Shown here: in pieces, positions 1 through 8,986 of the stretch
How the letters are laid out: the number at the start of each line of letters is the position of its first letter
How positions within the stretch are numbered: the first letter of the stretch is position 1
Assembly (NCBI GenBank): GCA_003164275.1
Contig: PLSY01000105.1
Location: forward strand, 1-8,986
Direction: 5' to 3'
DNA length: 8,986 bases
Source of the DNA: Acidimicrobiaceae bacterium
GTDB taxonomy: Bacteria > Actinomycetota > Acidimicrobiia > Acidimicrobiales > RAAP-2
Program-made: the position numbers and the translations under genes
Notes under the pieces: generated by a model
The model's database searches: none
Told to the model about the DNA's origin: nothing
The model's input: the letters and a program-made list of their open reading frames with translations, nothing else

Positions 1-1041
1 TTCACGCCCTCCTGCTCGCTTGTCGCACCCGGGGAGTCGCTGGTCACACCCACCTCGGTGAAGCCAGGCACCACGGCCACGGCGACCGCCACCGGGTTCA
101 CCCCCGGTGAGACCGTGAACGCCACGGTCCACTCGAACTCCATCGACGTCGGCCAGGCTGTCGCCGCTCCCGACGGCAGTGTCCACCTGACCTTCACCGT
201 CCCGGCCGGCCTGGCGGCGGGGACCCACGATCTGGTCCTGGTCGGCCAGGCGTCGGGTCACATGACCGCAGCCGCCTTCATGGTGACCGCCAGCTCGGGC
301 TACCGGCTGGCCGCAGCGGACGGCCAGGTGTTGCCCTTCGGTGGCGCCGGCCTGTTCGGTTCGGCTGACGCGGAACACCTCACTGCACCCGTCGTCGGCA
401 TCGCCGCGACCTCCGACGGTGGGGGCTACTGGTTGGTGGCCGCCGATGGTGGTGTCTTCGCGTACGGCGATGCCGCGTTCTACGGGTCCATGTCCGGGCG
501 GCACCTCAATAGCCCGATCGTGGGCATCGCGGCGACCTCCGACGGTGGGGGCTACTGGTTGGTGGCCGCCGACGGCGGTGTGTTCGCATTTGGGGACGCC
601 GGATTCCACGGGTCGATGGGTGACACGCGACTCAATGCCCCCGTGGTCGGCATCGCGGCGACCTCCGACGGCGGTGGCTACTGGTTGGTGGCCGCCGACG
701 GCGGTGTCTTCTCCTTCGACGCCTCGTTCCACGGTTCCATGGGTGACACGCGACTCAATGCCCCCGTGGTCGGCATCGCCGCAGGTCCAACCGGTGGCTA
801 CTGGTTGGTGGCCGCCGACGGCGGTGTCTTCTCCTTCGACGCCTCGTTCTACGGGTCGATGGGCGGCAAGAGCCTGAGCGGCCCGATCGTCGGGGTGACC
901 GCTACCTCCGACGGGAGCGGATACTGGATGGTCGGTGCCGACGGGGGAGTCTTCAACTTCGGCGACGCCGTGTTCTCCGGTGCAGCGTCAGGTTCGACCA
1001 CCGGTGCACCGATCGTCGGGATCGCCCCAACGGACGGGTAG
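1..1041 (+). CDS. C-terminal part of a secreted repeat protein with 'GYWLVAADGGVF' repeats (5' end outside window)
   Basis: The frame is open from base 1, so the N-terminus lies outside the window; 346 residues are visible. Residues from about 20 to 98 look like a small Ig-like beta-sandwich domain: Thr/Val/Gly-rich, with 'GFTPGETVNATVHS' and 'FTVPAGLAAGTH'. Six tandem repeats follow, starting at 298, 424, 550, 676, 796 and 919. Each is 40-42 residues, with the core GYWLVAADGGVF, an F-x-GS motif and 'P(I/V)VGIAATSDGG'. Repeats 4 and 5 lack the Gly of 'FGDA' and are one residue shorter there. The repeat type is known from actinobacterial exported proteins and probably folds as a propeller or beta-solenoid (inference). 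No sortase motif or C-terminal membrane segment is seen; the protein ends right after repeat 6. Function is unknown; an extracellular binding or adhesion role is a guess. Confidence 0.85.
   Translation, partial: FTPSCSLVAPGESLVTPTSVKPGTTATATATGFTPGETVNATVHSNSIDVGQAVAAPDGSVHLTFTVPAGLAAGTHDLVLVGQASGHMTAAAFMVTASSGYRLAAADGQVLPFGGAGLFGSADAEHLTAPVVGIAATSDGGGYWLVAADGGVFAYGDAAFYGSMSGRHLNSPIVGIAATSDGGGYWLVAADGGVFAFGDAGFHGSMGDTRLNAPVVGIAATSDGGGYWLVAADGGVFSFDASFHGSMGDTRLNAPVVGIAAGPTGGYWLVAADGGVFSFDASFYGSMGGKSLSGPIVGVTATSDGSGYWMVGADGGVFNFGDAVFSGAASGSTTGAPIVGIAPTDG
298..1038 (+). repeat. Six in-frame tandem repeats of about 120-126 bp
   Basis: Units begin at 298, 424, 550, 676, 796 and 919. Units 3 and 4 share an almost unbroken DNA block around 'GGGTGACACGCGACTCAATG'. 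Units 4 and 5 share another around 'GGTGTCTTCTCCTTCGAC'. Near-identity at DNA level, including silent sites, points to recent intragenic duplication or conversion in the middle of the array. The outer units 1 and 6 are more diverged. Confidence 0.85.
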
Positions 1042-1075
1042 GCGACGGTCCTCGCTGCGATCGCCGTGCTCCAGG

Positions 1076-1151
1076 GTCAAGTAGCCAAAGGGGGCCGCCC
1101 CCCCGGGAGGCCTCTCAGAACCGGACGTGACCGTTTGCCGTCTTCGGGTTC
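1076..1151 (-). ncRNA. Degenerate group II intron domains V and VI
   Basis: Minus strand 1151 to 1118 is exactly 34 nt, the canonical domain V length. Its 3' strand is intact (ACGTCCGGTTC) and its first five bases GAACC pair with the final GGTTC. The catalytic AGC triad position reads AAC, and the middle of the 5' strand pairs poorly. Domain VI follows: GAGAGGCC pairs imperfectly with GGCTACTT, leaving an unpaired A at 1082, 6 nt from the inferred 3' end at 1076. This matches the usual branch-point A. The changed triad implies loss of catalysis. Confidence 0.65.
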
Positions 1152-1172
1152 CCACAGCTCGGCCGCCGGTGA

Positions 1173-1410
1173 TCAGAACAGCCCCCAATGGGCGAACAGG
1201 CGAGGTTCCCTGTGGATGATGGCGCTGAGCCACTCGCGGGCCTCACGCTCACTTGTCCTTCATCCGTCTGGACTTCCGCATCGCCCAGTGCCGGAGATGC
1301 TCGTTGAGGTGTCGTCTCAGGCAGCTCAACTCGGAGCGCTCGAAGTCCGCTCAGTCGTTGATCCAGCCTCAGAACCGAGGGCTGATGTCGCCCTGTGGCG
1401 TATTCGCATC
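1173..1410 (-). pseudogene. Group II intron reverse transcriptase/maturase, C-terminal fragment with stops and a frameshift
   Basis: The last frame, 1173-1244, reads 'REPRLFAHWGLF' and stops, a typical end of group II maturases. A second frame, upstream and ending at a TGA at 1249-1251, reads 'LNEHLRHWAMRKSRRMK'. That matches the maturase domain X pattern L-R-R-I-N-x-Y-L-x-R-W-A-R-R-K. In the same frame, 'GWIND' followed by 'ADFERSEL' corresponds to the usual GW(I/V)NYYGRF-x-SEL segment, with TGAs at 1351-1353 and 1369-1371. Joining the pieces needs one frameshift near 1245 and readthrough of these stops. Further upstream 'TPQGDISP' resembles the RT motif TPQGG-x-ISP; if real, about 200 residues were deleted between the two. 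That last point is weak. Family assignment rests on motif recognition only. Confidence 0.65.
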
Positions 1411-1420
1411 CCAGGTTCCG

Positions 1421-2494
1421 TCAGCTGTCCACGAGGTGGAGCACGAAGGCGGTCAGTTGGCCGCGGCTCCGGACCCCCAGCTTTGCGTAGATGTTGTCGA
1501 GATGCCTCTTGACCGTGCCCTGGGCCACGTGCAGTTGGGCGGCGACTGCAGCATTGCCGGCGCCGAGCACCACGAGCTCGGTGATCTCCGCCTCCCGCGG
1601 GCTCAAACCCAGTGACTCGTAGTCCCGTCGTCGCGCCGGACGAGGTTCCTCATCGACGATGATGGCCCCCGGATGAGCACCCTGGGCCGGCAGGTACCGC
1701 AGCACGATCCGCTGGCCGTCCAGCTGCGCCGTCAATGGACGGATCAGCTTCAGTTCCTCGTGTTCGGCAAGGTGAGCCTGTTGTGAGGCAATCCACCGGT
1801 CCACACGTGCTGGCAACGGCGAGGTGCGGGACGGACGTCCGAAGAACCGGTAGAGCGTGACCAGCGCCCCTGGGGCCAGCTCGTCAGGCGGGTCCCACAA
1901 CACGATGACGTTCCATCCGCGCCCGGTCACCGCGTCGTTGGCGACGTCTACCAGGCCCCGTAGGCGCTCCTGGTCCCGGAAATTGCGCCAGGCCTGGGCC
2001 AAGTGGGGACGCAGCACGTTCAAGGCATCCCGATCGCGATCGCTGAAGTCGCGATCCGCCCGGCTGACGACCAGTCCGAAGACGACCGGTGCCGCGGCCG
2101 GGAGTGTGGCCGACATCTGGTACTCGACGCCCATGGGACCGTAGAGGTCTCGATGCAGCCGGCTGGCGTGGAACATGTCCTGTGACCAGAAGTCGCTGAT
2201 CCGCCAGGCCGAACCGTCACCCGTGGCGGTTGCATGGCGAATCAGCGGGTGCTCAGCGGCGAGCTCGGTGAGCAGCTCAGCGGCATCGTCGGGCACCGCG
2301 AATGACGCCGGCTCCATCCAATAGGTGAGGCGACCGCCGACCGGATCGACTTCGTTGGCGGTGGCGACCAGACACGGCATGAGGGCCGCCACGCCCTCGA
2401 GCGTCGATTGGAGGAAGGTGTCTCGTTCCTTCGCCTCACTAACGACTCGAACAACGTCGAGTACGCGCGAGAGGTCACTCTCGTCGAGCCGCAC
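1421..2494 (-). CDS. LuxR-family transcriptional regulator with a GAF-like N-terminal sensory region
   Basis: The chosen GTG at 2494 gives 357 residues. The C-terminus (about 297-357) is a clear LuxR-type winged HTH: 'LSPREAEITELVVLGAGN', then 'VAAQLHVAQGTVKRHLDNIY' and 'KLGVRSRGQL'. The long N-terminal part has no receiver-like Asp/Lys pattern. It resembles GAF-like or autoinducer-type sensory regions seen in stand-alone LuxR regulators; the ligand is unknown. The frame is open upstream to a TTG at 2656, but those extra 54 residues are low-complexity in character and I exclude them. A TANNNT hexamer lies 7 nt before the GTG and no strong Shine-Dalgarno is seen, supporting a leaderless start. 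The gene stops immediately before the group II intron remnant. It probably controls transcription in the cytoplasm; its targets cannot be read from this window. Confidence 0.85.
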   Translation of the reverse strand: MRLDESDLSRVLDVVRVVSEAKERDTFLQSTLEGVAALMPCLVATANEVDPVGGRLTYWMEPASFAVPDDAAELLTELAAEHPLIRHATATGDGSAWRISDFWSQDMFHASRLHRDLYGPMGVEYQMSATLPAAAPVVFGLVVSRADRDFSDRDRDALNVLRPHLAQAWRNFRDQERLRGLVDVANDAVTGRGWNVIVLWDPPDELAPGALVTLYRFFGRPSRTSPLPARVDRWIASQQAHLAEHEELKLIRPLTAQLDGQRIVLRYLPAQGAHPGAIIVDEEPRPARRRDYESLGLSPREAEITELVVLGAGNAAVAAQLHVAQGTVKRHLDNIYAKLGVRSRGQLTAFVLHLVDS

Positions 2495-2501
2495 GGCACT
2501 T

Positions 2502-2507
2502 ACTCTA
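2502..2507 (-). promoter_or_regulatory. Candidate -10 hexamer (TAGAGT) for a leaderless LuxR-type regulator transcript
   Basis: TAGAGT lies 7 nt upstream of the GTG at 2494, the position of TANNNT -10 elements in actinobacterial leaderless promoters. No convincing -35 is visible 17-18 nt further upstream. Confidence 0.4.
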
Positions 2508-3082
2508 TCCCCGGGTGCTGGTCCGGACCCGATTCCCGCAACGGCGCAATGGCGCGGGACCAGGTTGGGAACTCGGCACCCGCCAAAGGTTTGACTATGC
2601 GCCTCGGTGCGGCTCAAGGTTGGGGCGTCGCCAGCGCCGGGGGCTGCAAAGGGCAAGACAATGTTTTCCGGGCTTGACGCTCAGCTGAAGGATGCATTCC
2701 TCAGGTGGGCAAAGACGCCGAATGCACGGCCCATAAGTGACGAGCGGGTGCAGGCGTGAATCGACGATGGAAGGCCGGTTGGCGGACGGGCGCCAAGTTG
2801 AAAAGGCGTCGGCGAAGCGCACGTTCGAATGGAAGAAGACAGCGACTCGAAGGACGGGGCCTGCGAGGCAGTAGCGATTCCGATCCAGTCATCGCCCTCG
2901 CAATAATCCCGGGCAGCCGATCGAGCCAGGTCAGGCCTTCAATCGACGTCTCTCGTGCCCTCCGAAGGTACCCATGGATGACGATCGACTCGCTCACGAG
3001 CCGAGGCTGGCGAATGTGGCGATCTTTGCGCTGGCGAATGGGGTCGGCCGCACAAGTTCAGAGCTTTCGTGAAGATTGTGTA
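2508..3082. other. Region without a convincing intact gene; possible coding debris
   Basis: No ORF here combines a good start, codon bias and a recognisable protein. A 32-codon ORF at 2661-2759 (plus; 'LDAQLKDAFLRWAKTPNARP') looks protein-like but is not assignable. Plus frame at 2881-3072, around ATG 2974, and minus frame 2701-2997 both give semi-plausible peptides, so neither can be trusted. A long plus frame from 2756 runs into the lipoprotein region, but its first part is Arg/Ser-rich as expected for non-coding high-GC DNA. The stretch is best seen as eroded intergenic sequence preceding repeat copy E. Confidence 0.4.
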
Positions 3083-3216
3083 CGCCGAACGACGGGGGCC
3101 GCCTTCCGAACCTCAGCGCAGAACCAGGCACGTCGGGTGTGCTCTTGGGCGGCCAGCGTGCCGGCGGTCGGGCGGCTCGGGCCACGCCGCAATCCGGCAG
3201 CGTTTAGGGATTTCTG
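3083..3216 (+). repeat. Punctuating repeat, copy E (most diverged, internal deletion)
   Basis: It shares 'GCCGAACGACG' with copy A at its left, then lacks about 30 nt. It matches A and D again at 'CAGCGCAGAA', a two-base insertion, 'GGCACGTCGGGTGTGCTC' (shared with D), 'GTCGGGC' and 'GGGCCACGCCGC' (shared with A). It is in the same orientation as the other copies and precedes the lipoprotein gene. Confidence 0.6.
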
Positions 3217-3317
3217 CCGCCGCCGTAAGTATCACGTAAGAGACATGCCGCTCCTATTGGAGAGCCGGACCAGCTGGGTCATCATGGTGTGTGCTTGGGT
3301 TCCTGGGGCGGTGGCGG

Positions 3318-3676
3318 ATGGGCGCGACTCTGACCACGGTCTCTGGTGCCGTCTGCATGATCGCTGGCTGCTCAACGACGGCGGCTACGGCTCTTCACTT
3401 GCCGTCCGAAGCAGTTGGAATCGTGATGGTGTGGTGGGTGCCTGTGCCCCGCCGATGACTCCGGACGGCTATCAGAAGGTTCCCGTAGGCGTATTGCTGG
3501 TGCAGCACGGACGGACGATCGAGCGACAAACCGTGACAGGCACCCACGCGTTTGTGTTCCATGTCCCACCCGGCGATTACGTCGTCCAGTCAGCGGGAAC
3601 GCCTACGCTGCACATTCCCGCCACTGTTAGGAGCGGTGGGTCAACCATCGTGGACTTGCCCTCACTCTGCTCGTAG
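3318..3676 (+). pseudogene. Small exported lipoprotein gene with a frameshift near 3430
   Basis: From ATG 3318 the frame reads a signal-like segment, 'TLTTVSGAVCMIAGC', with an I-A-G-C lipobox placing the lipidated Cys at residue 18. A possible GTG at 3291 would add 9 residues, including an Arg-Trp-Arg n-region, and make a better signal peptide. This frame ends at TGA 3456-3458 after 'VGIVMVWWVP'. The -1 frame continues coherently from about 3430 to 3676: 'GACAPPMTPDGYQKVPV', then 'THAFVFHVPPGDYVVQSAG' and a Cys-Ser end. The second part has the T-x-x-F-x-F-x-VPPG-x-Y-x-V pattern of a transthyretin-like or carboxypeptidase-regulatory beta-sandwich. A one-base loss (or two-base gain) would join the halves. 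It is either a recent pseudogene or a sequencing error. If intact it would be an outer-surface lipoprotein of unknown role. Confidence 0.5.
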
Positions 3677-3679
3677 TGG

Positions 3680-3792
3680 GCGGCAAAGTCAGACATCTTG
3701 GTCACCCACTCGGCGGTCAGGGACGCTGCGTTGAACAGTGAGCCGGGGTCAGGAGGGATGTCGCTGAGATCGGGCACTATGGAAGTGTGCAA
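3680..3792 (-). pseudogene. Possible orphan coding fragment on the minus strand
   Basis: The minus frame reads 'IVPDLSDIPPDPGSLFNAAS', then 'AEWVTKMSDFAAHYEQSEG'. Third positions are strongly G/C and the composition is protein-like, while the plus strand here has stops and no coding character. No start codon or recognisable domain is present, and the frame runs on into antisense of the lipoprotein gene. It is probably a leftover of an unidentified gene; I would not assign a function. Confidence 0.25.
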
Positions 3793-3845
3793 CCTGGCGG
3801 TTCGTATGGGGGACGCCCATCTGGGTCCTATCGGATTCAGCGGTA

Positions 3846-4538
3846 ATGTCCAATCCTCGACAAGGCCATGAAGACGAGGCCGATTTGGTTGTCAGGGACA
3901 CGGTCGCGCTGGTCGAGCAGCTCAACGACATGGGCTACGTGATCGGATTCGGCAGCGTCGTCATCAAGCCGGACCTCCTGGTCCTTTTCTGGGTCGAAGG
4001 AGACGGTGTCACTTTCGTGGATGATCTGAGACGACTTGGTTTCCGCCACTCCTACAGACTGCGGCCGGCCCGGGAGACCCGGCACCCATCTTGCCTCGGG
4101 ACTGAGGAGGAGTCCGGAACCAACGGGTCCAGACTCGAGTGGACAGTGTGCCAGTCACCACCTGGTCAAGCATCCCAGAAAAAGCTCATATCGCGGGTGG
4201 GGCGCGTGGCGGAAGTGCCGTTCCGGGCGTGCAACAGGAGCAGGCACGGGAGGCCGCCTGCCTCTGCTGAAGAGCATGCGGAACCGCGCTCCGCAGCCAG
4301 TTCCGTGGGCGCCGCCGACCGCGCCCGCTGGGGCGCCGAACGACGCGCCAGAACGACAGCCGTCGCCACCCTGGCCGCAGCGCAGAACGGCACGTCGGGC
4401 GGCTTGGGCCACGCCGCGACCCGGTCAGGGACACACCTTCCCTGGTGTCACGTAAGCGAGAGACGCTCGACGAGAAGCTGCCCTGGCCAGCCATCGCGAT
4501 CAAATGACTCGGTTGGCGTGAATCCCGCAGACTGGTAG
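3846..4538 (+). CDS. Hypothetical protein; only the first 75 or so residues look genuine
   Basis: From ATG 3846 the first part (to about 4065) has high G/C at third positions and reads as a compact alpha/beta domain: 'VALVEQLNDMGYVIGFGSVV', 'IKPDLLVLFWVEGDGVTFVD', 'LRRLGFRHSYRL'. I do not recognise the family. Beyond that the composition turns Arg/Ser/Pro-rich. The frame then runs through repeat copy A and ends antisense to the acetyltransferase gene, which suggests the true stop was lost by insertion or indel at the repeat junction. Upstream, another frame from ATG 3779 reads 'VRMGDAHLGPIGFSG' and might be its original N-terminus, cut off by a frameshift near 3865. No Shine-Dalgarno or TANNNT is seen. 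The coding claim for the first third is moderate; the full ORF length is doubtful. Confidence 0.35.
   Translation: MSNPRQGHEDEADLVVRDTVALVEQLNDMGYVIGFGSVVIKPDLLVLFWVEGDGVTFVDDLRRLGFRHSYRLRPARETRHPSCLGTEEESGTNGSRLEWTVCQSPPGQASQKKLISRVGRVAEVPFRACNRSRHGRPPASAEEHAEPRSAASSVGAADRARWGAERRARTTAVATLAAAQNGTSGGLGHAATRSGTHLPWCHVSERRSTRSCPGQPSRSNDSVGVNPADW
4220..4432 (+). repeat. Punctuating repeat, copy A (longest, both arms)
   Basis: The left arm 'GTTCCGGGC' with 'CAACAGGAGCA' and 'GCACGG' is shared with copy B. The core 'GCGCCAGAACGAC' is shared with C and, with small changes, B and D. The right arm holds 'GCAGCGCAGA', 'GGCACGTCGGG' and 'GGGCCACGCCGCG', shared with D and E. It ends about 15 nt from the 3' end of the acetyltransferase gene. 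Confidence 0.65.
4433..4448. terminator. Weak hairpin at the 3' end of the acetyltransferase gene
   Basis: ACACC and GGTGT form a 5-bp stem around a TTCCCT loop, overlapping the stop codon of the minus-strand acetyltransferase. There is no T-run, so a terminator role is only possible. Confidence 0.2.
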
Positions 4539-4963
4539 TAGCGCACAATCTGTTGGTATCCGCCAGCCCAGCAATCGACTCTCAACAGGCTGAGGCCACG
4601 GGCGAGGCAGTCAGCGCGAGCGTGGTTCAACAGTGCAGTCCCGATCCCTTGCCTGACAAGACGTCTCGAAGTCAGGAGGAGAATGATGTAGAGGCCCGGT
4701 TCGTCTGTCACCGGAGCGTATGCGGGAGAGTCCTCGCTGACGTCAAGAGCGCCGACCAACTCGCCTCCGACCTCAGCAACGGTGAGGTTAGGACTTCTCG
4801 CCAATCTGGCAACCCGCTCCCGCCGATCGGGTATCTCCGACCAGGGCTTGCTACCCCATTGTCCACTGAGACCACGCTCAGCGAGCCAGAGAACCGCCTC
4901 GTCGAAAAGCCGGAGCAAGGACTGCTCGTCGTCGACCGTGCCCGGTCGAAGTAGAACTTCCAT
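4448..4963 (-). CDS. GNAT-family N-acetyltransferase
   Basis: From ATG 4963 the product has 171 residues, the usual size of a single GNAT domain. The acetyl-CoA pyrophosphate-binding motif A is visible as 'RQGIGTALLNHA' (Arg104-Gly106-Gly108). It is preceded by the beta-4 strand 'PGLYIILLLTSRR' and followed by 'GLSLLRVDCWAG' and 'YYQSAGF', the typical motif B helix and strand. Family members transfer an acetyl group from acetyl-CoA to an amine of a small molecule or protein; the substrate is not readable. A longer start (GTG 4996) adds 11 residues but crosses a TANNNT hexamer, so the shorter form is preferred. The gene lies alone between repeats A and B, opposite to the recombinase. Single GNAT genes are common cargo of integron cassettes, but nothing here shows antibiotic modification. 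Confidence 0.85.
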   Translation of the reverse strand: MEVLLRPGTVDDEQSLLRLFDEAVLWLAERGLSGQWGSKPWSEIPDRRERVARLARSPNLTVAEVGGELVGALDVSEDSPAYAPVTDEPGLYIILLLTSRRLVRQGIGTALLNHARADCLARGLSLLRVDCWAGGYQQIVRYYQSAGFTPTESFDRDGWPGQLLVERLSLT

Positions 4964-4971
4964 AGAGAACG

Positions 4972-4977
4972 ACCATA
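4972..4977 (-). promoter_or_regulatory. Candidate -10 hexamer (TATGGT) for the acetyltransferase
   Basis: TATGGT lies 8 nt upstream of ATG 4963 with no Shine-Dalgarno between, consistent with a leaderless or very short leader transcript. No clear -35. Confidence 0.3.
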
Positions 4978-5023
4978 GAGGTCGTCTCGTGAACACGGTC
5001 GGTACGTTCGCCCCACACGTGTT

Positions 5024-5172
5024 GTTCCGGGCACAGCAACAGGAGCAAGCACGGAGGCCGTCAAGGCATCGAGAACCTCGTCGGCAGCGATGTTGCGAGT
5101 GCCGGCGACCGCACCTGCTCGGGTACCGGCCAACGCGCCAGAACTACGGTGGTGATCTCATCCATCTGGGGC
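5024..5172 (+). repeat. Punctuating repeat, copy B (left arm and core; right arm mostly lost)
   Basis: It shares 'GTTCCGGGC', 'GCAACAGGAGCA' and 'AGGCCG' with copy A, then 'GCGACCGCACC' against A's 'CCGACCGCGCC', then the core 'GCGCCAGAAC'. The 'GGCACGTCGGG' segment of the other copies is missing. The repeat ends some 30 nt before the recombinase Shine-Dalgarno, so any promoter of the recombinase should lie in or beside it. Confidence 0.6.
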
Positions 5173-5205
5173 CCGGTCGCCTCGTCCCCCGAGTCCCATC
5201 CACTC

Positions 5206-5212
5206 GGGAGGT
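5206..5212 (+). promoter_or_regulatory. Shine-Dalgarno GGGAGGT deciding the recombinase start
   Basis: GGGAGGT sits 5 nt before ATG 5218. It is the only strong ribosome-binding site in this half of the window and excludes the longer GTG start at 5149. Confidence 0.8.
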
Positions 5213-5217
5213 ATCCC

Positions 5218-6129
5218 ATGACCACCACAGCAAAAGCGATTGTCGTCTACGACCCTGCACTCGCCGGTCCTGAGCACATAGCCCTCGCCGGGTTCCTCGG
5301 CGGCTACCGCGGGCTCACCCGCGACGCCTATGCGCTCGATCTTCGTCAGTTCGTCGCCTTCTGCGATGAGCGCCGCCTGGGTCTCTTCGAGGTCCGGCGA
5401 AGCGACATCGAGGCCTACGGACGGGAGCTGGAAGCTCGGGGTCGGGCAACGGCCACCGTCGGTCGGCGACTGTGCACCGTGACGGGCTTCTACCGCTACG
5501 CCGAAGAGGAAGGTCTGATTGCCCATTCTCCGGCTGTTCACGTGCGTCGACCCCGGATCGATTACGAATCCCATGCCATCGGCCTGGACCGCAACGAGGT
5601 AGGGGCGTTGCTCGTTGCCGCCGGGCTCGGGCCGGCAGGCGAGCATGCGCTGGTTTCACTGCTGGCGCTGAACGGGCTGCGGGTCTCCGAAGCGATCGGA
5701 GCCGACATCGAGGCCCTGGGCCTCGAGCGCGGTCATCGGACACTCACCATCCTTCGCAAGGGCGGGAAGACCGTCACCATCCCGTTGGCACCTCGGACGG
5801 CCCGGGCGGTCGACCTGGCCATCGGAGAACGCGACAGCGGCCCGATCTTCATCACGGCGGACGGTCGACGTCTTGACCGTCACGGCGCCAGCCGGATCGT
5901 TCGGAGGGTCGCCCGCCGTGCTGAGATTTCCAAGGCCATTGGTCCGCACACGTTGCGGCATGCATTCATCACGGCAGCCCTTGATGCTGGGGTGCCGTTG
6001 CGCGACGTCCAAGAGGCTGCTTCACACGCTGATCCACGGACCACGATGCGTTATGACCGGGCCCGGGTGTCCCTGGACCGCCATGCCACGTACATCGTGT
6101 CCACCTACATCGCTGGTGCTGCCCGCTGA
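5218..6129 (+). CDS. Tyrosine recombinase / integrase (XerC/D-like), complete
   Basis: The product has 303 residues, the usual size of an XerC/D-type recombinase. The N-terminal SAM-like core-binding domain spans about residues 20-110 ('TRDAYALDLRQFVAFCDER', 'ATVGRRLCTVTGFYRYAEEE'). The catalytic domain contains all expected residues: Arg155 in 'NGLRVSEAIG', Lys181 in 'LRKGGK', His244 and Arg247 in 'HTLRHAF', His270 in 'ASHADPRTTMRY' and nucleophile Tyr279. It should therefore be active, cutting and rejoining DNA by a covalent phosphotyrosine intermediate. I see no integron-type insertion between the catalytic boxes. It lies alone between repeats B and C. Its last 116 codons are duplicated at 8435-8785. 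Candidate substrates are the flanking repeats or the duplicated 3' end (inference). It could instead be an ordinary phage or island integrase. Confidence 0.93.
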   Translation: MTTTAKAIVVYDPALAGPEHIALAGFLGGYRGLTRDAYALDLRQFVAFCDERRLGLFEVRRSDIEAYGRELEARGRATATVGRRLCTVTGFYRYAEEEGLIAHSPAVHVRRPRIDYESHAIGLDRNEVGALLVAAGLGPAGEHALVSLLALNGLRVSEAIGADIEALGLERGHRTLTILRKGGKTVTIPLAPRTARAVDLAIGERDSGPIFITADGRRLDRHGASRIVRRVARRAEISKAIGPHTLRHAFITAALDAGVPLRDVQEAASHADPRTTMRYDRARVSLDRHATYIVSTYIAGAAR

Positions 6130-6130
6130 C
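5779..6130 (+). repeat. 352-bp direct repeat, parent copy (3' end of the recombinase gene)
   Basis: This segment matches 8435-8786 at a constant offset of 2656 bp with 7 mismatches and no gaps. It starts at codon 188 (Ile-Pro-Leu-Ala) and ends one base after the stop codon. Upstream and immediately downstream the two loci differ. Confidence 0.95.
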
Positions 6131-6135
6131 GGCGC

Positions 6136-6149
6136 CGGCCGTTTGGCCG
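6136..6149. terminator. Short hairpin just downstream of the recombinase stop
   Basis: CGGCC-GTTT-GGCCG forms a 5-bp GC stem with a 4-nt loop, inside a wider imperfect GC-rich dyad. No T-run follows. The second recombinase copy lacks this hairpin. Confidence 0.35.
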
Positions 6150-6234
6150 CCGGCAGATACCTGCTGGCACCCAGGGTCAACGATCTGGCGACCACACTGA
6201 GTCGGCGTCTAGCGTCGCCGAAGAAGTCACAGAG

Positions 6235-6356
6235 CGACGCGCCAGAACGACGACCATCGCCACCTTGCCCGCTGCACGTCGGTTGCGCTCGCGTTCAGCA
6301 AGCATGTTCGGGGTTGTGTCGCTTGAGCCTCGCTGCGAACCGGGTGTTCAGGGACA
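6235..6356 (+). repeat. Punctuating repeat, copy C
   Basis: The core 'CGACGCGCCAGAACGAC' is identical to copy A. It continues with 'ATCGCCACC', 'GCACGTCGG', then 'GCTCGCG' and 'GCAAGCATG' shared with copy D, and 'GCGAACCGGGTGTTCAGGGA' at the right end. The kinase-like gene starts 41 nt beyond the end. Confidence 0.65.
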
Positions 6357-6385
6357 TTTACGCTCCGTGGTCAGCCACAGGTCGA

Positions 6386-6391
6386 TAGCTT
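6386..6391 (+). promoter_or_regulatory. Candidate -10 hexamer (TAGCTT) for the kinase-like gene
   Basis: TAGCTT lies exactly 6 nt before ATG 6398, the same spacing as at the next gene, with no Shine-Dalgarno between. A leaderless transcript is likely; no clear -35. Confidence 0.4.
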
Positions 6392-6397
6392 CTCGGC

Positions 6398-6967
6398 ATG
6401 GACGACGGGATGTTACTCATCCTCGCCGGGCCCCCTGGGGCCGGGAAGACGACGGTGGGAGCGATCATTGCCTCCGAGCCACCGCTGTCCGCCTGCATCC
6501 ACTCGGATTGGTTCTGGACCACGATCGTGAATGGCCACATTCCACCCTGGGAGCGTGCGGCGGATGCTCAGAATCGGGCTGTAATCCGAGCGGCAGCGGC
6601 AGCCGGAATCCGGATGGCAAACGCTGGGTTCACGGTCGTCCTGGACGGCATCCTCGGCCCGTGGCACTTCGAGCCACTGAGGGAGGAACTGGCACAGTGC
6701 ACGGCCCCGGTGAACTACGCCGTGCTTCGACCCGACAGTGACACCTGCGTGGTCCGGGCCCGGGGACGAGTGCTGGAGTCACCACAGCATCGAGACGCCT
6801 TGACCGATGAGGGACCGATTCGGCATATTTGGGACCAGTTCCACCACCTCGGACCGATCGAGCCGTTCGTGATCGACAACTCGGCCATCGATCCCCGAGC
6901 TACGGCGATGCTGGTCCGGAAGCGCATCGCCGCAGGTGAACTCGTCTTCCCAGCCATGGATCTCTAG
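6398..6967 (+). CDS. P-loop NTPase / small-molecule kinase-like protein (AAA_33 or chloramphenicol phosphotransferase-like)
   Basis: The 189-residue product is a single P-loop domain. Walker A is GPPGAGKT at residues 11-18. An Asp in 'HSDWFW' (Asp37) sits where small-molecule kinases of this class carry the catalytic base. A hydrophobic strand ending in Asp, 'FTVVLDGILG', fits a Walker B-like position. 'VVRARGR' resembles an Arg-rich lid that clamps ATP. The family includes nucleotide and metabolite kinases, chloramphenicol 3-O-phosphotransferase and, more distantly, zeta toxins; the substrate here is unknown and no antitoxin gene is beside it. An in-frame ATG at 6410 is an alternative start, but the TANNNT spacing favours 6398. 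The gene follows repeat C and precedes the isomerase-like gene by 97 nt, in the same direction. Confidence 0.8.
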   Translation: MDDGMLLILAGPPGAGKTTVGAIIASEPPLSACIHSDWFWTTIVNGHIPPWERAADAQNRAVIRAAAAAGIRMANAGFTVVLDGILGPWHFEPLREELAQCTAPVNYAVLRPDSDTCVVRARGRVLESPQHRDALTDEGPIRHIWDQFHHLGPIEPFVIDNSAIDPRATAMLVRKRIAAGELVFPAMDL

Positions 6968-7052
6968 CGCCTCGCTCCCGCTGGCATGGGACACCTGCTG
7001 GTGGGGGGCGCGTCCAATGCCGTAAGGGCAAGATCGGCCTGACCGACGTCGG

Positions 7053-7058
7053 TAGTGT
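7053..7058 (+). promoter_or_regulatory. Candidate -10 hexamer (TAGTGT) for the isomerase-like gene
   Basis: TAGTGT lies exactly 6 nt before ATG 7065. The nearest purine-rich stretch (GAG) touches the start codon, too close for ribosome binding, so leaderless transcription is likely. No clear -35. Confidence 0.4.
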
Positions 7059-7064
7059 TTCGAG

Positions 7065-7652
7065 ATGGAGCCAGCCGACTATATCGAGGTTTGCCGGACG
7101 AGCCATCGAAAGTTGCTCGAAGGACTGGCGCCACTAGCGGATCACGATTTCCGTGCGCCAAGTCTCCTGCCTCGATTTACACGAGGGCATGTGGTCACTC
7201 ATCTCGCCAACAAGGCGAGGGCCCATGCCTGGCTCTTCGGTGGACCAGCAGAAGGCGAGGTCCGACGCCTCCATCCCGCTGGGTACGATGCCGACGCGGC
7301 GGCTTACTTAGGCGCTGGCCGTTCGGCGACCGAACTTCGCACCGATCTCGAGGGTTCGTTTGACCTGCTTGAGGCGGCATGGATCGCCCTGGATGCCAGA
7401 TCATGGAACGAACTGGGCGAGATGACTGCCGGGCCACGGAATATGGTCGAGATCATTGTTCATCATCTGAGAAACGTCGAAGTCCATCACGTGGATCTCG
7501 ACGTCGGCTATCTGGCCTCCGACTGGCCCACCCAGTTCGTTGAGGGTGAGCTCGCCAAGCGCCTCCGCACGCTTCCCGGACGAGCTGATCACGCAGATCT
7601 TCTCGCTTGGCTCCTCGACCGGGCGCGTGCGCCGGACCTAGCGCCTTGGTAG
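7065..7652 (+). CDS. Maleylpyruvate isomerase / mycothiol-dependent (DinB-like) family protein
   Basis: The 195-residue product has the four-helix metal-binding domain of the actinobacterial MDMPI/DinB superfamily. Visible signatures are 'RFTRGHVVTHLANKARAH' (His46 as likely metal ligand), 'GAGRSATEL', and 'NVEVHHVDLDVGY' followed by 'ASDWP'. Characterised relatives isomerise maleylpyruvate using mycothiol and a divalent metal; many others are mycothiol S-transferase-like detoxification enzymes. The family normally reads R-E-V-x-V-H-H; here the position of that first Glu appears to be Asn137. This may alter metal binding, although alignment by eye is uncertain. The C-terminal substrate domain of true MDMPI is largely absent, so a generic mycothiol-dependent enzyme is the safer call. 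The gene is convergent with the HAD gene, 72 nt away. Confidence 0.85.
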   Translation: MEPADYIEVCRTSHRKLLEGLAPLADHDFRAPSLLPRFTRGHVVTHLANKARAHAWLFGGPAEGEVRRLHPAGYDADAAAYLGAGRSATELRTDLEGSFDLLEAAWIALDARSWNELGEMTAGPRNMVEIIVHHLRNVEVHHVDLDVGYLASDWPTQFVEGELAKRLRTLPGRADHADLLAWLLDRARAPDLAPW

Positions 7653-7684
7653 CTGTCCCTTGGGGTGAATCCGGAAGGGGCACG

Positions 7685-7709
7685 CAGCCATCGGTCGGGG
7701 CAGTGGCTG
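7685..7709. terminator. Hairpin between convergent genes, possible shared terminator
   Basis: CAGCCA and TGGCTG form a perfect 6-bp stem around a 13-nt loop in the 72-nt gap between the isomerase-like and HAD genes. No T-run is present on either strand. Confidence 0.3.
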
Positions 7710-7724
7710 ACTCGACCCAGAGCG

Positions 7725-8408
7725 TCAGATCCCGAGGAGAGATGAGATCTCGCTAAGCGAACTGATTCTGTCTCCCGTCCAGTCGATCTCCTCGTCTGGG
7801 CGTTCCCTGCCATCCTCTCTGGGGTCGGCGACCAAGACCGCGTGCATGCCAAGCGCCTTAGCTCCACTGAGTTCATGGCTGCCGCCGTCACCCACGTACA
7901 GGCACTCACCAGGCGAGACGCCGAGAGTACGGGTGGCTTCAAGGTACATCTCGGGATGCGGCTTCCTAACTCCGAGCTGACACGAGAACGAGATCGCATC
8001 GAGCAGGCTGCTCAGCCACGTGGCGTCCCAAATCGTCGGTGTCTCGATCGAGCAATCGCTGACGACCCCCAATCGGAAGCCCACCGAGCGAAGGTGATCC
8101 AGCACGGGAGCAGCGCTGGTGTCGCCAAGAAGCTGGCGGGAGAAGTTCAGCCGTATCTCGATGGCCCGATCGACTTGCTTAGGTTGGGGGGAACCGCCGA
8201 GGCGACGAGCCAGTTCGACGTAGGTATCGGTGAGGCCGCCGAGTTCGCCCTTCATGCGGCTATCGAAGGTGGAGCGTACGAGTTCGGCGAACGCCTGGCC
8301 GTCCACGCACAGTTCAGCGGCTACCTGGTGCGAGACCGACTCACGATCGGACATCGAGCCAGACTCGACCAGCGTGCCGAAGAGATCGAACAGGACCGCC
8401 CGTATCAT
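7725..8408 (-). CDS. HAD-superfamily hydrolase (haloacid dehalogenase/phosphatase type)
   Basis: From ATG 8408 the product has 227 residues with all four HAD motifs: I 'FDLFGTL' (nucleophile Asp8), II 'VVSDCS' (Ser117), III 'GVRKPHPEMY' (Lys149) and IV 'YVGDGGSHELSGA' (Asp174, Glu179). A helical cap of subfamily I lies between motifs I and II. The residue two after the nucleophile is Phe, not the Asp of classical phosphatases. This is common in 'DLFGTL' members of the dehalogenase branch, so phosphatase versus dehalogenase activity is open. It acts in the cytoplasm on a small substrate that cannot be named. A frame extension to 8447 would start inside the recombinase fragment and is rejected. 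The gene is divergent from that fragment, whose edge lies 26 nt upstream of the ATG. Confidence 0.88.
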   Translation of the reverse strand: MIRAVLFDLFGTLVESGSMSDRESVSHQVAAELCVDGQAFAELVRSTFDSRMKGELGGLTDTYVELARRLGGSPQPKQVDRAIEIRLNFSRQLLGDTSAAPVLDHLRSVGFRLGVVSDCSIETPTIWDATWLSSLLDAISFSCQLGVRKPHPEMYLEATRTLGVSPGECLYVGDGGSHELSGAKALGMHAVLVADPREDGRERPDEEIDWTGDRISSLSEISSLLGI

Positions 8409-8415
8409 CGGCAAG

Positions 8416-8421
8416 ACGTTA
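8416..8421 (-). promoter_or_regulatory. Candidate -10 hexamer (TAACGT) for the HAD gene
   Basis: TAACGT lies 7 nt before ATG 8408 with no Shine-Dalgarno. The corresponding -35 region falls inside the recombinase fragment beginning at 8435, so the insertion that brought the fragment may have replaced part of the promoter. Confidence 0.35.
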
Positions 8422-8434
8422 GACCGCCTCTGAG

Positions 8435-8785
8435 ATCCCATTGGCATCTCGGACGGCCCGGGCGGTCGACCTGGCCATCGGAGAACGCGACAGCGGCCCG
8501 ATCTTCATCACGGCGGACGGTCGACGTCTTGACCGTCACGGCGCCAGCCGGATCGTTCGGAGGGTCGCCCGCCGTGCTGAGATATCCAGGGCCATTGGTC
8601 CGCACTCGTTGCGGCATGCATTCATCACGGCAGCCCTTGATGCCGGGGTTCCGTTGCGCGACGTCCAAGAGGCTGCTTCACACGCTGATCCACGGACCAC
8701 GATGCGTTATGACCGGGCCCGGGTGTCCCTGGACCGCCATGCCACGTACATCGTGTCCACCTACATCGCTGGTGCTGCCCGCTGA
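8435..8785 (+). pseudogene. 3' fragment of the tyrosine recombinase (codons 188 to stop)
   Basis: The fragment is a near-identical copy of the end of the recombinase gene at 5779-6129, with three amino-acid changes: Pro to Ser in 'LAPR', Lys to Arg in 'EISKA' and Thr to Ser in 'HTLRH'. It retains the His-x-x-Arg, second His and Tyr nucleophile, but lacks the core-binding domain, the first catalytic Arg and the Lys. A TTG at 8441 could start a 114-residue ORF, but there is no ribosome-binding site and the product could not recombine DNA on its own. The frame is intact and the changes are mild, so the copy is young or kept uniform by conversion. It lies between the HAD gene and repeat D, mirroring the parent's position before repeat C. 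Confidence 0.92.
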
Positions 8786-8844
8786 CCATCCGGGACTGCT
8801 GAGACCACACCGCGCCGGTCTATTGCGTTGTCGAGGGGGAACAG

Positions 8845-8977
8845 AACAACGCTCCAGAACGATGGCTGTCACCATCCCGGGCGCAGCGCAGATCGGCACG
8901 TCGGGTGTGCTCGCGTACTGCAAGCATGCTCGGCGTCGGGCAACTTATCCCCCGCCGCGAACCGGCGATCGGAGACA
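8845..8977 (+). repeat. Punctuating repeat, copy D (reaches nearly to the window end)
   Basis: The core reads 'GCTCCAGAACGA'. The right arm reads 'GCGCAGCGCAGATCGGCACG', then 'TCGGGTGTGCTCGCG', 'GCAAGCATGCTCGG' and 'CGCCGCGAACCGG'. These match C in the 'GCAAGCATG' and 'GCGAACCGG' blocks, and E in 'GGCACGTCGGGTGTGCTC'. It follows the recombinase fragment by about 60 nt. Between stop codon and core, 'GACCACAC' also recurs downstream of the parent gene. Confidence 0.65.
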
Positions 8978-8986
8978 GGTGGGAGC

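Follow-up and report, generated by a model that had tools for sequence, protein, structure and literature searches.

Does a series of repeats that divides a bacterial contig into small gene modules mark the work of a site-specific recombinase, and if so, of which one? This question is raised by an 8,986-nucleotide stretch from an Acidimicrobiaceae bacterium (GenBank assembly GCA_003164275.1, contig PLSY01000105.1, positions 1 to 8,986 of the forward strand), referred to at its full length as the window. Five related repeats, named E, A, B, C, and D in order of position, separate four gene modules in it, one of which is a tyrosine recombinase gene. We find that this is very probably an array of gene modules joined by recombination sites, in a layout like that of an integron. 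We further propose, with a probability of about 0.55, that the site is of the double-stranded tyrosine recombinase type and that the Xer-like recombinase of the window acts on it.

Five site copies divide the window into modules

The initial annotation, made from the letters alone, had described five related repeats on one strand in the above order. A test profile was built from 39 site copies of six other genomes, with the letters of the window and of loci L044 and L218 excluded. This profile found all five repeats on the + strand, with E values of 3.3e-12 to 1.4e-42. The next-best match in the window had an E value of 0.37, and 100 first-order shuffled windows gave a top score of 6.0 bits. 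Because the 39 copies came from models seeded on the window sequence, the test is independent in letters and not in discovery. The window copies are mostly 64 to 81% alike across 38 to 70 nucleotides (nt), and pairwise blastn among them gave E values of 6e-13 to 4e-5 in a 1.2-Mb search space made up of the window and 102 loci. Order and strand were therefore recovered as described. All five copies are present, but they are not equivalent, since copy E is a right half and copy B a left half.

Aligned copies define a site of ~280 bp, composed of a left arm, two direct CAGAACG[A/G]C cores, and a right arm. The left arm (~190 bp) begins with an inverted core, GTGCCGTT, and often opens with GTGCCGTTCCGGGCGC, the inverted form of core 2. 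Core 1, GCGCCAGAACGAC, is followed by ~30 variable nt and then by core 2, GCGCAGAACGGCAC, so that the direct cores CCAGAACGAC and GCAGAACGGC lie about 40 bp apart. The right arm (~75 bp) has the pattern GTCGGG.G.GCTCGCG...GAACCGG. Pairs of inverted ends, GTGCCGTT...AACGGCAC, with at most one mismatch per end and 150 to 230 nt apart, number 12 at sites, but the same 463 kb contains 30 more away from sites, so that such pairs are no signature alone. Twelve left arms fold slightly better than mononucleotide shuffles (mean z, -1.5). In 21 aligned left arms, with a mean column identity of 79%, RNAalifold gave no covariation support (folding, -16.75; covariation, +0.3), and the covariation term was about zero both in this peat-type site family and in the marine-type family described below.

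Copies A, C, and D each span both cores. Copy A (4212..4427, +; profile model positions 7-281; E value, 1.7e-36) is a full site, with the inverted left end GTGCCGTTCCGGGC from 4215, core 1 at 4343-4359, and core 2 at 4380-4393. Copy C (6190..6349, +; model 110-284; E value, 9.8e-30) has core 1 at 6237-6253, and its match starts 61 to 78 bp past the recombinase stop. Copy D lies at 8821..8978 (+), with core 1 at 8849-8865, core 2 at 8886-8899, and a right arm; the 39-copy profile matched 8704-8978 (model 28-291; E value, 1.4e-42). A narrower profile placed D at 8821-8972 and missed B.

The two half-sites end at cores. Copy B (5013..5152, +; model 4-181; E value, 3.3e-12) has everything up to core 1 (5133-5149) and nothing to the right of it, and the recombinase unit starts where it ends. 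A block upstream of the recombinase that is common to the window and to loci L001, L004, L033, L048, and L053 starts at 5144-5145; L004 and L048 share a longer block (215 nt) with each other than with the others. Copy E, the upstream array border, runs from core 1 (3082-3095) to the right arm and has no left arm (3082..3203, +; profile match 3087-3203; model 170-284 of 297; E value, 1.4e-23). It was matched to site copies in 23 of 32 comparison rows; none begins before 3083, and 14 begin exactly there. Upstream of it, positions 2945-3094 are 75% like contig C109 of genome G101 as far as the core and then diverge. Since the G101 contig has unlike sequence beyond the core, with its next site copy ~1.8 kb on, the locus is no proven empty target. 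No tRNA gene or known RNA family was found in the window, and a megablast search of plasmid records with positions 2600-8986 gave no match.

Site copies in related genomes

A model built from the window copies and L044 (R2) was searched in 120 genomes related to G001, to which L044 belongs. At an E value of ≤0.01, 26 of the 120 relatives had matches. Seven genomes had at least four: G001 (at least 28 copies), G102 (20), G167 (14), G155 (6), G101 (5), G164 (5), and G099 (4). The other 19 had one to three matches apiece, many of them weak. The many further copies anticipated by the initial annotation thus exist. With the narrower profile, 101 copies were collected from 60 stretches plus the window, which contributed four of them.

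Adjacent copies, with less than 8 kb between them, lie on the same strand in 41 of 43 pairs and on opposite strands in two. These pairs come from related genomes and so are non-independent, and the 41 include three window pairs and one L218 site split by an IS110-family element. Spacing ranges from 611 to 5,874 bp, with a median of 1,507 bp. The copies are intergenic, in line with the expectation that they respect gene boundaries: 0 of 97 nonwindow copies have their center inside a gene called by a purpose-made codon usage caller, versus 51.8 expected (500 random draws; minimum, 38). The expectation of a single variable gene per copy was not borne out; a unit comprises one to several genes, which can lie on either strand. 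Neighboring genes, available for 86 of the 97 copies on each side, showed no preference for the strand of the site (upstream, 44 same and 42 opposite; downstream, 39 same and 47 opposite). Of 76 copies listed for six genomes, 74 are on contigs of known length; 36 of these 74 lie within 2 kb of a contig end versus 24.7 expected, a modest excess.

Half-sites recur outside the window. Profile end points of the 101 copies are bimodal, with 27 at model positions 90-109, just past core 2, and 57 at ≥150; classed by extent, they comprise 55 full, 38 left-type, and 8 right-type copies. The proposal that left halves are downstream array ends and right halves upstream array ends was not borne out by position counts.

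IS110-family elements were seen at some sites. One (about 546-1980; transposase at 757-1779; Pfam DEDD_Tnp_IS110) lies inside the L044 site near the cores. At L216 (4256-4695), 471 nt at and after a left-half site are 85% similar to L044 527-997, and this site is probably also split by such an element. IS110-family transposases also occur near marine-type sites, at L143 17419-18444 and L160 1969-3003.

Junctions and variable content at the sites

BLAST comparisons yielded five pairs of loci with a shared left flank and five with a shared right flank. Five of these pairs were left aside, four because they involve the IS110-split L218 site and one (L210/L238) because its match starts >230 nt from the anchor. 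In the remaining five, near-identical flanks break at core motifs. L199 and L200 (G001 versus G102) share a 596-nt left flank at 96%, and L192 and L196 (both G001) share one of 648 nt, also at 96%; in both pairs identity is lost at core 1. The right flanks of L192/L203 and L236/L219 are 95 to 96% identical, and identity begins at core 2. In the fifth pair, L194 (G001) and L210 (G099), 254 nt are identical and the run ends exactly at the inverted core GTGCCGTT; the L194 contig begins 21 nt before this run. Right after the motif there are 0 identical bases, and both the site arms and the sequence beyond differ.

Genome G167 has a third content at this locus (L209). One orthologous site is therefore followed by different arms and content in G001, G099, and G167, as the initial annotation had expected of strains that differ in repeat-bounded units. 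G001 and G099 share 3,921 nt at 100% between L195 and L210. At another locus, compared with G102, G099 is 87 to 92% identical and G001 98%. Either strain variation or misbinning of a contig may account for the difference between G001 and G099. L198 (G001) and L206 (G167) share a UvrD-type helicase module (881 and 887 amino acids [aa]) at 88%, with different neighbors in the two; in one chromosomal stretch compared, these genomes are 81% identical.

The Xer-like recombinase

Module 3, between B and C, encodes a 303-aa protein (5218..6129, +; Pfam Phage_integrase, 1.3e-24) with a SAM-like N-terminal domain (Phage_int_SAM_1) and a catalytic domain (Phage_integrase). The catalytic residues are complete (R155, K181, H244, R247, H270, and Y279). 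Judged from its sequence, the enzyme is a simple Xer-like tyrosine recombinase. Among NCBIfam families, XerD and XerC are nearest and the integron integrase is further away. The XerD/XerC cutoffs are not reached (TIGR02225, 128.8 versus 329.6 bits; TIGR02224, 125 versus 335.15 bits), nor is that of the integron integrase (TIGR02249, 67 versus 265 bits; best stretch, residues 221-295). The best-scoring solved structures were XerD and XerA, and the integron IntI4 matched residues 221-292 only. An AlphaFold model had a mean predicted local distance difference test (pLDDT) score of 44 and was not usable. Relatives among the 120 matches listed, of at least 7,999 scored, are 76 to 95% identical, and those of them with a taxon name are proteins from Acidimicrobiales or Actinomycetota metagenome-assembled genomes.

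Several further observations concern this gene. Twenty-three viral contigs (L080-L102) encode relatives whose best segments are 30 to 61% identical. A hairpin that looks strong by eye follows the stop in the window (about 6130-6175) and at L033, L044, L001, L040, L006, and L066, with differing sequences. At L006, L007, L066 (a unit of about 1,060 nt), L040, and L009, the recombinase and short flanks form a conserved unit that ends abruptly and lies in different surroundings, as though it were itself mobile. The L192 contig begins in a recombinase gene copy (1-765), whose match ends after residue about 235 and which adjoins another integrase-like frame on the opposite strand. Pieces with only the C-terminal part occur at L059, L063, L064, L065, L071-L075, and L077, like one in the window (8435-8785, below); pieces with only the N-terminal part are rarer (L053 and L078).

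Three recombinase clades each have their own motif beside the gene. In the window and at L044, a site lies 36 to 78 nt past the 3' end. In the marine-type clade, a different repeat of ~70 nt follows the recombinase about 50 to 210 bp downstream at L010-L013, L025, and L067 and also close by at L027. The six genomes of these loci hold 21, 15, 7, 8, 1, and 5 copies (E value, 0.01), and the repeat is present in 24 of 60 relatives of G002 (E value, 1e-4). Orthologous marine-type loci (L011/L012 and L010/L013) match over 2.2 to 2.4 kb, and the match ends at the recombinase 3' end. In G070, a 25-nt motif that is part of a hairpin beside the recombinase occurs 12 times; it was absent from four other genomes, and the reversed pattern had no occurrence. 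A single site common to all clades was rejected: the marine-type model (R1) matched just 5 of 36 other genomes at an E value of 0.01, once each, and only the match in G090 was strong (4.8e-15).

Which enzyme acts, and is the array site specific?

Several results weigh against our proposal that the window recombinase works on these sites. The search that led to all three lineages began with the recombinase. Because any module of an array would have adjoining sites, the enzyme cannot be identified from adjacency alone. Ten marine-type relatives have at least five sites. A strong recombinase match (E value, <1e-100) occurs in four of them, G002-G005, all starting genomes, and that of G005 has internal stops; G042 has a weaker match (1e-40), and G009, G010, G012, G022, and G046 have none at 1e-25. 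Conversely, G039 has the recombinase and no marine-type site. Among the seven peat-type genomes with at least four sites, a window-like enzyme is present in G001 alone, and there solely in fragments truncated at contig ends; just distant relatives occur in G102 and G167, and G099, G101, G155, and G164 have no match at 1e-25. The genomes compared all appear to be draft assemblies, which may explain part of this patchy co-occurrence, and our confidence in the enzyme is lower because the genomes with strong matches are those we started from.

Other counterevidence concerns the recombination itself. The junctions number only five and are spread over three core positions. The array border at L201 was rejected as an integration junction, since it does not lie at a site: an interrupted RecD-like helicase gene and part of a methyltransferase gene meet there at a 7-nt match, GAGCAGG. 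At L192, about 55 bp separate the left arm from the border, outside it, with a flank that is also conserved in L202. No module circles were observed. Left halves are not concentrated downstream, with no further copy after 8 of 21 left halves versus 18 of 44 full sites (uncensored), and they are first in line in 19 of 33 cases versus 16 of 41 for full sites; simple insertion of circles would not predict this pattern.

The arrays might be real and yet be the work of host XerC/XerD or of another tyrosine recombinase, with the window enzyme as a passenger. G001 alone has 36 tyrosine recombinase matches, other integrase matches lie about 1 to 3 kb from sites (contigs C99 and C127 of G001, C33 of G167, and C143 of G101), and the site-rich genomes that were not reached via the window enzyme mostly have no close relative of it. 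We nevertheless regard this explanation as rather unlikely, because three clades with unlike motifs each keep their own recurring motif beside the recombinase 3' end; no other single recombinase was seen with a clade's own motif, although no systematic search for one was made. It is improbable that the copies are instead old dispersed repeats, like miniature inverted-repeat transposable elements (MITEs) or repetitive extragenic palindromes (REPs), and that homologous recombination shuffles the modules with no site-specific enzyme involved. Copies on many contigs and the inverted ends that the left arm can have (the 12 pairs at sites, against 30 elsewhere) would fit such repeats, but the common orientation of 41 of 43 adjacent pairs, the likeness of mostly 64 to 81% among the window copies, and the breaks of half-sites and near-identical flanks at the same short motifs would not.

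The recombinase sits inside a repeat-bounded module array, as it might in a canonical chromosomal integron whose attC sites have diverged. The family of the enzyme, the attC boxes, the fold, and the orientation of the genes were each tested and speak against this, leaving it highly implausible. The TIGR02249 score is 67 of 265 bits; the RYYYAAC/GTTRRRY box pair is present in 1 of 78 sites (those of ≥60 bits among 103 model hits); the mild folding tendency comes without covariation support; and the neighboring genes have no strand preference. The suggestion in the initial annotation of an integron-like layout with a different type of recombinase and repeat agrees with the IntI cutoff and attC box results.

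We therefore return to a module array with a double-stranded site, for which the window recombinase is the most likely enzyme. Under this proposal, two direct copies of the site would recombine to excise the module between them as a circle. The circle would then insert the module elsewhere by recombining with a further site copy or a chromosomal sequence that resembles a core, and the recombinase would travel as one module, between B and C. The anatomy of the site, the same-strand arrays, the half-sites, the five junctions, and the variable content at one orthologous site were observed directly; the circles, the direction of the events, and the choice of enzyme we infer.

Genes and modules of the window

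The cargo is varied. Module 1 (3096..4342, +) has unassigned open reading frames that include 3846-4538 (+); a lipoprotein annotated here was not confirmed, as the two frames tested had no Pfam match. Module 2 (4448..4996) encodes a GNAT acetyltransferase on the - strand, opposite to the sites (Acetyltransf_1, 9.5e-10). Module 4 encodes a P-loop kinase-like AAA_33 protein (6398..6967, +; 6.5e-10), a protein with a mycothiol maleylpyruvate isomerase N-terminal domain (MDMPI_N; 7065..7652, +; 6.3e-17), and a HAD hydrolase (7725..8447, -; Hydrolase, 2.1e-16). A recombinase fragment had been noted before copy D, and 8435..8785 (+) indeed duplicates the 3' part of the recombinase gene, from residue about 188, with 344 of 351 positions identical to 5779-6129.

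Outside the array, a LuxR-type regulator is encoded at 1421-2656 (-) and a repeat-rich protein without a match above its Pfam cutoff at 1-1041. Tandem repeats of 120 to 126 nt at 297-1041 encode a GGYWLVAADGGVF-type repeat protein, and this DNA is 68% similar to L200 2552-3107, a module flanked by sites at 2237 and 3961 in a G102 array.

Module cargo sampled in all includes GNAT acetyltransferases, an antitoxin-acetyltransferase pair, a PIN-like protein, UvrD-type helicases, and a hydrolase. Two candidates for defense cargo adjoin each other at L206 (6430-10588): a module protein whose nucleotide cyclase domain has weak matches to Pycsar cyclase models, and the UvrD-type module, which has matches to GajB helicase models.

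Comparison with known gene capture systems

Integrons are the textbook gene capture platform. A literature search found no description of arrays like those reported here under the terms used; preprints and most subscription papers were outside its reach. We tentatively suggest a third gene module capture system beside integrons and dif modules, in which a large Xer-like family of Acidimicrobiia and their kin would act on a double-stranded site particular to each lineage, with the recombinase itself among the modules. If this is correct, the platform is also cargo, and arrays can seed new chromosomal loci. With such arrays in soil, peat, and marine Acidimicrobiia, and with an enzyme and a site unlike those of integrons, site-specific module capture would then have evolved more than once. 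A site profile, together with the recombinase, would also give an annotation handle for a large and unrecognized source of variation in gene content among uncultured bacteria.

Sedentary chromosomal integrons are alike in having an array of sites in one orientation, a tyrosine recombinase by one copy, and content that varies at a single site. The present arrays differ in their Xer-like enzyme, which falls below the IntI cutoff, and in their ~280-bp site, with an attC box pair in 1 of 78 copies and an unsupported fold. They also have genes on either strand, occur on many contigs per genome, and place the recombinase itself between two sites.

The dif (pdif) modules of Acinetobacter likewise lie between Xer-type sites and are shuffled as whole units; their sites are XerC/XerD sites served by host enzymes, mostly on plasmids. 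Acinetobacter dif sites are 28 bp long and alternate in orientation. Here, the site is long (~280 bp) and same-oriented in 41 of 43 adjacent pairs, and the arrays have their own recombinase among the modules. Integrative elements can accrete at a shared attachment site, which yields tandem units between attachment sites as well as half-sites, whereas the units described here often hold one or a few ordinary genes and occupy many loci. IS110/IS1111 elements that target attC or repeats have a counterpart in the IS110-family element that splits the L044 site near its cores. Among the copies examined closely, such an element is inserted into the site only at L044 and probably L216; these elements do not explain the arrays.

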